From Candidatus Gastranaerophilales bacterium (GTDB lineage Bacteria > Cyanobacteriota > Vampirovibrionia > Gastranaerophilales > Gastranaerophilaceae), in assembly GCA_944324455.1 (NCBI GenBank), contig CALUWJ010000002.1, positions 62,001-126,000 of the forward strand: a DNA stretch of 64,000 bases, given 5' to 3'. Numbering within the stretch: the stretch's first letter is position 1; every line of letters starts with the position of its first letter. Shown one piece after another: positions 18,972-33,187 of this stretch. A program made the translations under genes and the position numbers. The notes under the pieces are model-generated. The model was not told where the DNA came from. It saw only the letters and a list, made by a program, of their open reading frames with translations, and did not search any database.

Positions 18972-18992
18972 ATGTTTGAAGGATTATATGGT

Positions 18993-19586
18993 ATGTACGG
19001 TAATAGAATTTCTGACGTCGGCGGAAGACGTGTCTTAGGCATGGGGGGTTCACTTAATGCCTATATTAGAACCGGTAACGCTTATGCTGGTATTGGCAGC
19101 GCACAAAATGATGCTTTTATTAAAAAAACCAAGACTAAATCAATAATAGATAAATTTATTACTTTTCTTTCTTTGGCCGGAATTACTGCAGGTGTTATTT
19201 TTGGCTTAAAAACTAAAAAATTAAACAAAGAGTCAATTAAAGATGCATTTTTAAAAACCAAATCATTATTCTCTTCATTTAAGATTAAAAAAGCTAATAA
19301 AAGCAAAGGTGGTTTGTTTAGTAAACTAAAATCAAGAAAAGCCAATAAAAGCAAAGGCGGTTTGTTTAGTAAATTGTTTAGCAAATTTAAATCTAAAAAA
19401 CAAAAAAATGATGGAATGGGTTTTATGAATACTGTTAGAGAAGAAGCTTCTAGAACATCTGACAGCTTTAACAAAAATATTAATCCATCAGATATTGTGC
19501 CTGTTAAAACCGATGTTGATATTATTGATAAATCAGGTAATGTTGTTGCTCACACAGATACAACAATAAGATATCTCCATGATTAA
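18993..19586 (+). CDS. lysine-rich repeat protein with one membrane helix, unknown function
   Basis: The start at 18993 is preferred to the ATG at 18972: GAAGGA lies 9 bases before 18993, and the -10 box directly abuts 18972, so the earlier ATG would lie upstream of transcription. The 197-residue product has a hydrophobic segment (FLSLAGITAGVIFGL, about residues 51-65) followed by a very basic region with two near-identical copies of KANKSKGGLFSKL (codons at 19290-19328 and 19338-19376). The C-terminal part (IVPVKTDVDIIDKSGNVV) may be a small beta domain. No family was recognised. Its last 4 bases overlap the convergent Spy-like gene. Confidence 0.7.
   Translation: MYGNRISDVGGRRVLGMGGSLNAYIRTGNAYAGIGSAQNDAFIKKTKTKSIIDKFITFLSLAGITAGVIFGLKTKKLNKESIKDAFLKTKSLFSSFKIKKANKSKGGLFSKLKSRKANKSKGGLFSKLFSKFKSKKQKNDGMGFMNTVREEASRTSDSFNKNINPSDIVPVKTDVDIIDKSGNVVAHTDTTIRYLHD
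19290..19376 (+). repeat. in-frame 39-base tandem repeat, 48-base period
   Basis: Two copies (19290-19328 and 19338-19376) differ at only a few mostly silent positions (gct/gcc, ggt/ggc, cta/ttg) and encode KANKSKGGLFSKL twice. The silent differences argue for selection on the peptide. Confidence 0.85.
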
Positions 19587-20041
19587 TTATTTTTTTTATT
19601 GTTTTTAGACTTAAACTCGTTTTTGATTTTTTCAAATTCGGATTTTTGATTCTGTGTTAATATTTTTTCAAATTCTTCTCTGTGTTTTTTTCTCAAATTA
19701 TCAGCTTCTTGTTTTAACAATACTAACTGCATCTTTTTGGTGCTTGATTTAATATCTGCTTCAAGTTTTGAATTTGATGAAAGATAAATAGATTTTATCT
19801 CTTTTGTTAGTTTTTCCATTTTATTTAGAATTTTTCTTATTTCTTTTTTATTTTTTTGGCGATTTTTCTTTAATATTTCTTTTTGTTCATCAGTAAGATT
19901 GAGTCTAGAATCGATCATTTGGATAAATTCTTTTTTATCGGCGCAGGGTTTGTTATCCGTTTTTATTTGATTTGCATTTGTTATTAAAAAAAGATTTGTA
20001 AATATTAATATTGAAGCTAAAAGGTAAATAATTTTTTTCAT
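19583..20041 (-). CDS. Spy/CpxP-like periplasmic protein, candidate CnrX-type sensor
   Basis: The 152-residue product has an N-terminal signal or anchor (residues about 4-23) and then an all-helical, highly charged domain with two LTxxQ motifs, LTDEQ at 49-53 and LTQNQ at 128-132. These are the mark of Spy/CpxP-type proteins, which include periplasmic chaperones and the metal sensor CnrX. Its ATG overlaps the stop of the sigma gene by 1 base (TAATG), so expression is coupled. Possible ligands are a Cys at 33, Met at 42, 75 and 104, and His at 120. It may sense envelope stress or metal for the sigma factor. That role is inferred from operon structure. Confidence 0.78.
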   Translation of the reverse strand: MKKIIYLLASILIFTNLFLITNANQIKTDNKPCADKKEFIQMIDSRLNLTDEQKEILKKNRQKNKKEIRKILNKMEKLTKEIKSIYLSSNSKLEADIKSSTKKMQLVLLKQEADNLRKKHREEFEKILTQNQKSEFEKIKNEFKSKNNKKNN

Positions 20042-20544
20042 TAATTTTCATCCTCTGTGATTAAAAAACTAAGTTTTTCTTTTAGAATTTTTCTTGCATT
20101 ATTTATTCTTGATTTAACTGTTCCTTGTGGAATTTTTAGTTTTTGCGAAATTTTTTCGTATGAATAATCTTCAAATTCATAAAGAATAATAACTTCTTTC
20201 ATTTTTTTAGGCAGTGAATCAACTTCCCTTAAAATAATTTTTTGTCTCTCTTTCTTTGTTAATTCTTTTTCAGGGTTTTGGTTGGATTTTATTGAGTTTA
20301 GTGTAAATTCATCATTTGTTGCAATACTTTGATTTTTAAAATATGAACTTTTTAAATAATCTCTGCAGATATTTGCTGCAATTGTAGAAATCCATTGAGA
20401 AAATTTATTTTGTTCTTGATATTTATCCAGATGTTTATACGTTCTTATATAGACTTCCTGTTCTAAGTCTTCATTTTGCGTGCCAATAAATTTCTTGATT
20501 ATTTGACGAATTTTTAGTTTATTTTTGTTTATTATATCTTTCAA
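20041..20544 (-). CDS. ECF-type RNA polymerase sigma factor
   Basis: The 167-residue protein has sigma region 2 (NEDLEQEVYIRTYKHLDKY, then FSQWISTIAANICRDYLK) and region 4 (LPKKMKEVIILYEFEDYSYE, then KISQKLKIPQGTVKSRINNA). It starts with TTG one base after the stop of the small membrane protein gene, with AAGG about 9 bases upstream. Gene order is small membrane protein, sigma, Spy-like protein, all coupled. No zinc-finger anti-sigma gene is adjacent. The small membrane protein is the likely anti-sigma. An ECF-type promoter precedes the operon, which fits autoregulation. Confidence 0.92.
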   Translation of the reverse strand: MKDIINKNKLKIRQIIKKFIGTQNEDLEQEVYIRTYKHLDKYQEQNKFSQWISTIAANICRDYLKSSYFKNQSIATNDEFTLNSIKSNQNPEKELTKKERQKIILREVDSLPKKMKEVIILYEFEDYSYEKISQKLKIPQGTVKSRINNARKILKEKLSFLITEDEN

Positions 20545-20772
20545 TTATTTTACCTTTTGCAGTGCAAATTCATCCTCAAGAAGTTGCTTTTGCAATGTGT
20601 TGCTATTTAAAGACAAGTACAACTCTGTTCCTTCATTGTATATATGCATTGCACTTGAAAATAGAAAAGCAGGAATAAACATTATGACAAATAACTTCGC
20701 CATAGCTTTTCGTCTTTTTCTTTGTCTGTAGAGTGGTCTTGCCTCTTTTAATAAATCTGATAATTTATCCAT
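20545..20772 (-). CDS. small single-pass membrane protein, candidate CnrY-like anti-sigma factor
   Basis: The ATG at 20772 has AAGGA 8 bases upstream. The frame is open up to 20859, but that part covers the promoter. The 75-residue product has a basic cytoplasmic N-terminus (MDKLSDLLKEARPLYRQRKR), one membrane helix at about 28-45 (LFVIMFIPAFLFSSAMHI) and about 30 periplasmic residues. This is the layout of CnrY, the minimal anti-sigma factor that clamps its sigma with a short N-terminal helix; the DKLSDLLKEAR pattern recalls, from memory, the start of CnrY. The protein is the first gene of the sigma operon. Anti-sigma function is inferred. Confidence 0.72.
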   Translation of the reverse strand: MDKLSDLLKEARPLYRQRKRRKAMAKLFVIMFIPAFLFSSAMHIYNEGTELYLSLNSNTLQKQLLEDEFALQKVK

Positions 20773-20791
20773 TTTTTTATTCCTTATATTT

Positions 20792-20821
20792 ATTATAACG
20801 ATAAAATTTGAAATATGTTCA
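20792..20821 (-). promoter_or_regulatory. ECF-type promoter of the sigma operon
   Basis: Minus strand: TGAAC (20821-20817), a 16-base spacer and CGTTA (20800-20796). This fits the ECF pattern GAAC/GAAAC-N16-CGT. A TATAAT at 20797-20792 overlaps it, so housekeeping sigma could also use the site. Confidence 0.5.
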
Positions 20822-20981: not shown

Positions 20982-21245
20982 ATGACACGATTAAAACAAT
21001 ACAGAAACGTTTTTGAAGAAGAAGTATTCAATCCGTTCGAGGTGAAGGATAATACTGATTCTTTAAGAAGAACACTTGAGCGAATTGATAATAGAGATAT
21101 CAGAGGCAAATTCAAATGTGCTCAAGATCCAATAAATATTGCATTTAGAAGAATTGAAGATATATCATTAAAGACTTTGGCTGTAGATTTTGTAAAGGAA
21201 AGCTTTATTGATTTTGTATCTTATGTAAAAGATGTATGTAAATAA
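20982..21245 (+). CDS. hypothetical protein, 87 residues
   Basis: A small soluble protein, rich in charged residues and probably helical (DSLRRTLERIDNRDIRGKF, then FRRIEDISLKTLAVDFVKES). A GAGAG ribosome site lies 6 bases before the ATG. No domain was recognised. It is monocistronic, with its own promoter and a terminator at 21299. It shares its upstream box with the gene at 18993, so the two may be controlled together. Confidence 0.75.
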   Translation: MTRLKQYRNVFEEEVFNPFEVKDNTDSLRRTLERIDNRDIRGKFKCAQDPINIAFRRIEDISLKTLAVDFVKESFIDFVSYVKDVCK

Positions 21246-32286: not shown

Positions 32287-32853
32287 ATGAACGAAGATAA
32301 AATTGAAATAATAAAAAGGGCTATTAAGGCTGATAAGCTGGCTTTGATAGAGCTTATTAAACAAGAACAAGATAATATATATGCAACTCTTTTTTATATG
32401 AAAAAAGATGAAAATGATATAGCGGATATTATGCAGGATGTTTTAATTAAATTGAGCAAAAAAATTACTCAATTAAAAAATCCTAAATATTTTAAAACTT
32501 GGCTAAATCAGATTATTATAAATTCATATTATGATTATCTTAGAAAAAATAAGAAAAAATCAACAGAAGTTCCATTAATTAAAAATGATGACTCATCTGC
32601 TATCGAAGTGCCTGATTATGATTCCAACCCGCAAGAAACTGTTTTAAATAATGAACTTGATTTAATTATCAAAACATCAATAGAAAATTTACCCTTGCAT
32701 TATAAAATTCCGATTACTTTAAGAGAAATTCAAGGTTTAAGCTACGATGAAATTTCAAATATAACAAATACAACGGTTGGCACAGTTAAATCTCGTATTG
32801 CGAGGGCAAGAGCAATAATAAAAGATGATATTAATAAATATTCAAGAGGATAA
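32287..32853 (+). CDS. ECF-type RNA polymerase sigma factor (second)
   Basis: The 188-residue protein has region 2 (DENDIADIMQDVLIKLSKKI, then YFKTWLNQIIINSYYDYLRK) and region 4 (LPLHYKIPITLREIQGLSYD, then EISNITNTTVGTVKSRIARA), joined by an acidic linker. It belongs to the SigW-like ECF group in general layout. The next gene starts one base after its stop and is the likely anti-sigma factor. No ribosome site is visible before the ATG. Confidence 0.92.
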   Translation: MNEDKIEIIKRAIKADKLALIELIKQEQDNIYATLFYMKKDENDIADIMQDVLIKLSKKITQLKNPKYFKTWLNQIIINSYYDYLRKNKKKSTEVPLIKNDDSSAIEVPDYDSNPQETVLNNELDLIIKTSIENLPLHYKIPITLREIQGLSYDEISNITNTTVGTVKSRIARARAIIKDDINKYSRG

Positions 32854-32854
32854 T

Positions 32855-33187
32855 ATGATTTCTACAGGCGCACTAGAAGATAAAATTAATGAATATTATG
32901 ATGAACAAATGAATTCTTCGCAATTATTGAACTATGAAGCAAGAATTGCGAATTCGCTGTTAATTAAAGAATACACATATCAAAGATGTTTTGAATTTTA
33001 TAAAATCTCTAATTCAATTAAATTTACGAAGAAAAGACTGAAACCAAAAGCTCAAGAGATAACAAAGAATATTTTAGTAAATATACAAGATGATTTATTC
33101 TTCGATATCAATTCCGTTTTTTCTAAGAGTGTCAATAAACATTTGCGCAGCTTTCTTTTGAACCTCAGGAGGCACAACTCTAAGTAG
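32855..33187 (+). CDS. probable anti-sigma factor lacking zinc ligands
   Basis: The start at 32855 has AGAGGA 5 bases upstream and is coupled to the sigma stop. The 110-residue product begins LEDKINEYYDEQMNSSQLLN, then YEARIANSLLIKEY, which follows the helical pattern of zf-HC2 anti-sigma domains, but the HxxxCxxC zinc ligands are absent (only one Cys, in QRCFEF). No membrane segment is present, so it would be a soluble anti-sigma. The C-terminal 31 codons overlap a convergent gene by 93 bases. The anti-sigma assignment rests mainly on position. Confidence 0.65.
   Translation: MISTGALEDKINEYYDEQMNSSQLLNYEARIANSLLIKEYTYQRCFEFYKISNSIKFTKKRLKPKAQEITKNILVNIQDDLFFDINSVFSKSVNKHLRSFLLNLRRHNSK

Follow-up and report, generated by a model that had tools for sequence, protein, structure and literature searches.

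The YHX operon and its promoter

The window (the whole 64-kb stretch of Candidatus Gastranaerophilales DNA that was analysed) contains three coupled genes on the minus strand, here called Y, H and X. Y (20772-20545, minus strand) encodes a 75-aa N-in single-pass protein that is predicted to be a short-form anti-sigma factor. H (20544-20041, minus strand) has a TTG start and encodes a 167-aa ECF sigma factor. X (20041-19583, minus strand) encodes a 152-aa periplasmic LTxxQ protein with a signal peptide and a modelled Spy/CpxP/CnrX four-helix fold. The Y stop and H start codons abut in the same frame (TAA-TTG), and the H stop and X start codons overlap (TAATG). A ribosome-binding-like AAGGA, read directly from the sequence, lies before the Y ATG (20781..20785, minus strand). 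The TTG start of H is kept in most of the genus. Two plus-strand ORFs adjoin the operon, neither of which belongs to a Pfam family: one of 83-87 aa, divergent from Y, whose position opposite Y is conserved at many loci of the genus (20982-21245), and one encoding a basic protein of 204 aa in which KANKSKGGLFSKL units are repeated, and the end of which overlaps the end of X (18972-19586).

An ECF-type promoter, TGAAC-N16-CGTTATAAT (20792..20821, minus strand), begins 49 nt ahead of the Y ATG and is predicted to be an autoregulatory site. The strict pattern TGAACN15-17CGTT occurs only once on the two strands of the 64-kb window. The motif is shared by all 54 loci scored, being found upstream of Y in 33/33 loci with a short Y, as in the window, and in 21/21 loci with the long form described below. 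In each of the 54 it starts 47-64 nt ahead of the Y start, with a spacer of 16 nt (43 loci) or 17 nt (11 loci).

The Y-H-X gene order recurs across the genus, family and order. X directly follows H in 48 loci (scripted recovery; an X-like match in L206 was judged spurious and left out). Y was found in 23/39 relatives at single-sequence sensitivity, the two weakest matches being doubtful, and in 319/383 genomes of the order Gastranaerophilales by profile search. Four genus-mates without Y (G006, G010, G023 and G116) are also without H and have only the other ECF sigma factor of the genome. In a further genome (G011, loci L008 and L256), the sigma gene is in two frames and Y and X are apparently intact, which may reflect an assembly error or a decaying copy. 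The first-pass annotation had described three coupled minus-strand genes behind an ECF-type promoter and had taken the lack of a conserved three-gene linkage in relatives as grounds for refutation; the linkage is present, and the ORFs, their junctions, the promoter and the recurrence of the order all confirm this description. Y-H-X is a real, widely conserved system, far above chance.

H scores above the Pfam cut-offs for sigma-70 r2 and r4_2 and above the NCBIfam cut-off for TIGR02937. Its sigma-70 regions 2 and 4 without region 3, along with the ECF-type promoter, identify it as an ECF sigma factor. In both sequence and fold, its closest PDB relatives are sigmaE (RpoE), SigW and AlgU. CnrH is not among the sequence matches of H and is ranked 23rd by Foldseek. 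The only other ECF sigma factor found in the genome is encoded at 32287-32853 (plus strand). A 120-aa ORF downstream of it (32825-33187, plus strand) matches no Pfam family and may encode a regulator of that sigma factor.

X can be assigned to the Spy/CpxP (LTXXQ) family by its signal peptide, its two LTxxQ motifs and its match to the conserved domain PF07813 (35.7 bits, cut-off 24.3), a domain matched by 15/15 X members. The motifs, read from the sequence and from alignment A5, are LTDEQ (residues 49-53; 19883..19897, minus strand) and LTQNQ (residues 128-132; 19646..19660, minus strand). The sequence-nearest relatives of X are Spy and CpxP. The structural model of X (pLDDT 85) has CnrX as its top PDB match (3epv; Foldseek probability 1.00, TM 0.51/0.68, but E 0.19), and further matches are ZraP, CpxP, NccX and Spy. 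The combination of a membrane anti-sigma factor, an ECF sigma factor and a periplasmic Spy-fold protein, proposed from the window alone, is kept in the order Y-H-X across Gastranaerophilales.

Origin of the short Y protein

The short Y has three predicted parts. Residues 1-24 form a putative cytosolic segment, MDKLSDLLKEARPLYRQRKRRKAM (20701..20772, minus strand; alignment A1), that pairs with the long form from residue 37. A transmembrane segment at approximately residues 25-46 (20635..20700, minus strand) is predicted from hydrophobicity and the positive-inside rule and is helical in the fusion model described below. The periplasmic tail, at approximately residues 47-75 (20548..20634, minus strand), may be the site at which X binds; its terminal DEFAL block is aligned with GLPVDxYGL, the tail of the long form. 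Y is 72-78 aa long in this genus, where it is present in nearly every genome with H and missing where H is missing. The cytosolic segment is its best conserved part: after the start Met, the five invariant residues of the genus proteins (E10, A11, P13, L14 and Y15; alignment A1) all fall within positions 10-15.

The Y protein of the window has no family match in Pfam or NCBIfam, and a short-Y profile has no meaningful match among PDB sequences. The first-pass annotation had likened Y to CnrY, a kinship that does not hold: none of 21 short Y proteins matches the CnrY/NccY model NF033790 (NCBIfam) at E<=1, and Y corresponds to a truncated class I zinc anti-sigma domain. An AlphaFold2 model of Y fused to H (in-frame Y-TAA-H, with TAA read as Gln), made to judge whether a Y helix wraps both sigma2 and sigma4, has a low pTM of 0.41.

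In most other genera of the order, Y is approximately 115 aa long. The additional N-terminus has four invariant residues in 21 long homologues (C6, H24, C28 and C31), with the spacing C...HxxxCxxC, and HxxxCxxC is also present in deep families. This spacing is the signature of zinc anti-sigma factors (PMC4598750). The long-Y profile matches B. subtilis RsiW from the SigW complex (5wuq; E-value: 2e-4) with HxxxCxxC in register. The RsrA model is weakly matched by 19/21 long Y proteins and zf-HC2 by 15/21, both below curated cut-offs, and the family matches agree in position.

The short Y can be aligned over its whole length with residues 37-114 of its long counterpart (hhalign probability 99.3, E-value: 1e-20), and so can be read as a class I anti-sigma factor minus the sigma4-binding zinc bundle. 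Judged from its sequence, the Y protein of the window is a class I zinc anti-sigma factor without the zinc-bound front part. Because HxxxCxxC and the fourth Cys/His ligand are absent from it, as from every Y of the genus, it is classified as a truncated class I derivative and not as a full member. Class I anti-sigma factors are described with two contacts: sigma4 is bound by a bundle of the first three helices, and sigma2 by helix 4, which also blocks the beta-prime site (PMC7406223). Most predicted sigma contacts of the class I domain are on helix 4 (PMC7406223). The segment remaining in the short Y corresponds to the membrane-proximal end of the anti-sigma domain. Which helix of the domain it represents is uncertain, as the flexible linker that usually precedes helix 4 is not evident.

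Zinc-type Y and H are found in families f3, f4, f5, f6 and f7, in most cases with the same promoter. In a sigma tree rooted on the deep zinc-form families, 34 short-Y systems form one clade (100/98) and one further short Y (G286) is placed beside a zinc-type neighbour (100/99). The two short/long changes on this tree are best read as two losses of the zinc bundle, of which the second, independent truncation (G286) retained the same Y segment. An earlier sigma tree with distant ECF outgroups and very long branches had suggested that the short Y was ancestral; it was replaced once zinc forms were found in f3-f7.

The short-Y clade includes one family f6 genome and six loci from gut Alphaproteobacteria MAGs. 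The latter have a G+C content of 37-43%, compared to 29-30% for the Gastranaerophilales loci; their alphaproteobacterial assignment is based on record titles and base composition. A host EF-G tree, which is a single quick marker tree, requires five changes of the short/long label. Together, the membership of the clade and these five changes point to horizontal movement of the short Y-H-X module between bacterial groups. On the same EF-G tree, the EF-G of a family f6 genome (L352, G036) falls inside family f1, which may reflect transfer or contamination.

A broader history can be proposed, to which we give slightly less than even weight: the zinc class I anti-sigma factor would have shed its sigma4-binding bundle at least twice independently, leaving a segment of approximately 24 residues that inhibits via sigma2 alone, and the Y-H-X module would then have moved between families and into gut Alphaproteobacteria.

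Predicted regulon

The strict promoter motif is also found elsewhere in the genome of the window, before the gene for a 101-aa Cys/His/Met-rich membrane protein. A variant of the motif, CGTTACAAT, precedes TolC, after which come MacA, an ABC ATPase and MacB. Among genomes of the genus, the motif precedes the 101-aa gene in 20/23 and TolC in 10/27 (including the genome of the window); homologues of the two genes also have the motif ahead of them in other genera. Some motif-preceded genes encode His-rich secreted proteins. A hydrophobic N-terminus is encoded by 27/28 genes behind intergenic sites, compared to 26% of long window ORFs; the choice of sites outside the genus for AT-rich spacers somewhat favours this fraction, but insufficiently to explain it. 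As total motif counts across the genus are not above those of a reversed-pattern control, only sites conserved between genomes or located before genes were used. G023 keeps the motif before the Cys/His/Met-rich gene although it is without H, G005 has H but not this motif, and the association of the motif with the presence of H is modest (p 0.067; 0.038 without the incomplete genome G006). The motif predicts an envelope regulon consisting of YHX itself, the Cys/His/Met-rich membrane protein and TolC-MacA-MacB.

The Cys/His/Met-rich single-pass protein encoded downstream of an apparent hisB (G000:C4:60406-60708; L073, L115) is conserved in the family and is a predicted target; the tail of this protein looks metal-binding. 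A small secreted protein family (FFNNYVTAANSY...) is repeatedly found behind the motif (L320, L324, L328 and L315), and the one member searched has no Pfam match.

Proposed mechanism, alternatives and known systems

Y-H-X is probably an autoregulated transenvelope sigma switch in which Y brakes H, X supports Y and envelope stress frees H. The locus is best read as an envelope-stress sigma switch that is gated by a Spy-like protein and has an anti-sigma factor reduced to a minimum. The operon, its conservation and promoter, the homology of the short to the long Y, the zinc motif of the long Y, the fold of X and the predicted regulon come from computation. We infer the inhibition of H by Y, the binding of X to Y, the direction of signalling and the trigger; the steps would be the following. 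Y would sit in the inner membrane, its first 24 residues facing the cytosol, and this cytosolic remnant would keep H inactive, probably by shielding the sigma2 surface to which the beta-prime clamp of RNA polymerase binds. By analogy, X would bind the conserved C-terminal tail of Y and so keep the brake on. Envelope stress (unfolded envelope proteins, possibly metal) would draw X away or reshape it, and the loss or change of X would lead to the release or cleavage of Y. Freed H would then recruit RNA polymerase to TGAAC-N16/17-CGTTATA promoters. Its targets would be its own operon, the TolC-MacA-MacB efflux operon, and the genes for the Cys/His/Met-rich membrane protein and for further secreted proteins. 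The very short length of the remaining cytosolic segment makes inhibition by the short Y through sigma2 alone a tentative reading.

For CnrX and CnrY, the proposed mode of release is a conformational switch. Regulated proteolysis of Y by a site-1 protease, a site-2 protease and Clp, with X acting as an RseB-like shield, is a possible sub-version of the switch and compatible with it, and we hold it tentatively. Y has a short conserved periplasmic tail, and both RsiW and RseA, which are known relatives of the long Y and partners of the relatives of H, work by proteolysis (PMC4598750). In a different version, X would itself bind a transition metal, like CnrX, and free H through Y to induce metal handling and efflux. 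CnrX is the closest structural match of the X model, the most conserved second target is the Cys/His/Met-rich membrane protein, some targets are His-rich secreted proteins, and in many relatives the N-terminus of X has a high content of His, Met or Cys. However, X of the window has only one His and one Cys after its signal peptide, and no conserved set of metal ligands was found among the X proteins, in which the His, Met and Cys positions vary (the mapping to CnrX ligands is approximate). In sequence, X is closer to Spy and CpxP, with Metal_resist matched by just 3/15 members, and TolC and general secreted targets suit a broader envelope signal. Direct metal sensing is rather unlikely.

Less probable still is that the short Y no longer inhibits H and serves as a tether or co-factor, with H held by X via another partner or by its level of expression. 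In favour of such a role, the class I bundle that contacts sigma4 has been lost and the Y-H fusion model is of low confidence; yet the cytosolic segment, with its five invariant residues, is what conservation has favoured in Y, the short Y is kept with H and lost with it, and the second truncation preserved this very segment. True membership of CnrYXH, in which Y would be a class II anti-sigma factor of the CnrY/NccY type with two helices wrapping sigma2 and sigma4, can be considered very improbable. The three functions are the same, Y is a small single-pass protein and X has the CnrX fold, but the 21 Y proteins do not match the CnrY/NccY model, Y shares ancestry with a zinc class I protein, H is RpoE/SigW-like and the gene order is different.

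The unusual feature of Y-H-X is a truncated anti-sigma factor with intact relatives for comparison. If the segment of approximately 24 residues inhibits through sigma2 alone, the short Y would rank with the smallest anti-sigma domains for ECF factors, and the sigma2 contact would have been separated from the sigma4 contact in nature. As the sigma4 contact has been removed while the operon, promoter and partner sigma factor have been kept, with close intact relatives as controls, the sufficiency of one contact is directly testable. The system also gives a conserved sigma factor of uncultured gut relatives of cyanobacteria a regulon that is predicted across species and centred on TolC-MacAB. In the papers searched for Melainabacteria or Gastranaerophilales with ECF or anti-sigma factors, nothing was found on the Y-H-X sigma factor, and none of them connects an ECF/anti-sigma pair of this lineage to a Spy-like gene.

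Several known systems resemble Y-H-X in part. CnrYXH and NccYXH of Cupriavidus also combine a small single-pass anti-sigma factor, an ECF sigma factor and a periplasmic sensor with the CnrX/Spy fold in one autoregulated operon. The analogy drawn in the first-pass annotation stands with respect to X, which has the CnrX/CpxP/Spy fold, but not with respect to Y, which is unrelated to CnrY: it is derived from class I zinc proteins, whereas CnrY is class II. The sigma factor here is RpoE/SigW-like, the order is Y-H-X, X is without the conserved His/Met metal set, and the predicted targets are TolC-MacAB and secreted proteins. SigW-RsiW of B. subtilis and the zinc domains of RsrA and ChrR share the C...HxxxCxxC motif with the long Y, which matches RsiW, and H is closest to SigW and sigmaE. 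Unlike these, the Y protein of the window has lost the zinc-bound bundle, and the operon includes a Spy-like gene. In sigmaE-RseA-RseB and AlgU-MucA-MucB, as here, a membrane anti-sigma factor and a periplasmic partner are set over an envelope-stress sigma factor with an envelope regulon; the partner here is Spy/CpxP-like and not RseB-like, and the tail of Y is only approximately 30 residues long. In CpxP-CpxA-CpxR and Spy, too, a protein of the Spy/CpxP fold is presumed to act as a brake in the periplasm and as an envelope-stress effector, although the output here is an ECF sigma/anti-sigma pair and not a two-component system. Y-H-X is predicted to be an envelope-stress sigma system that works like CnrYXH but lies outside the CnrYXH family.
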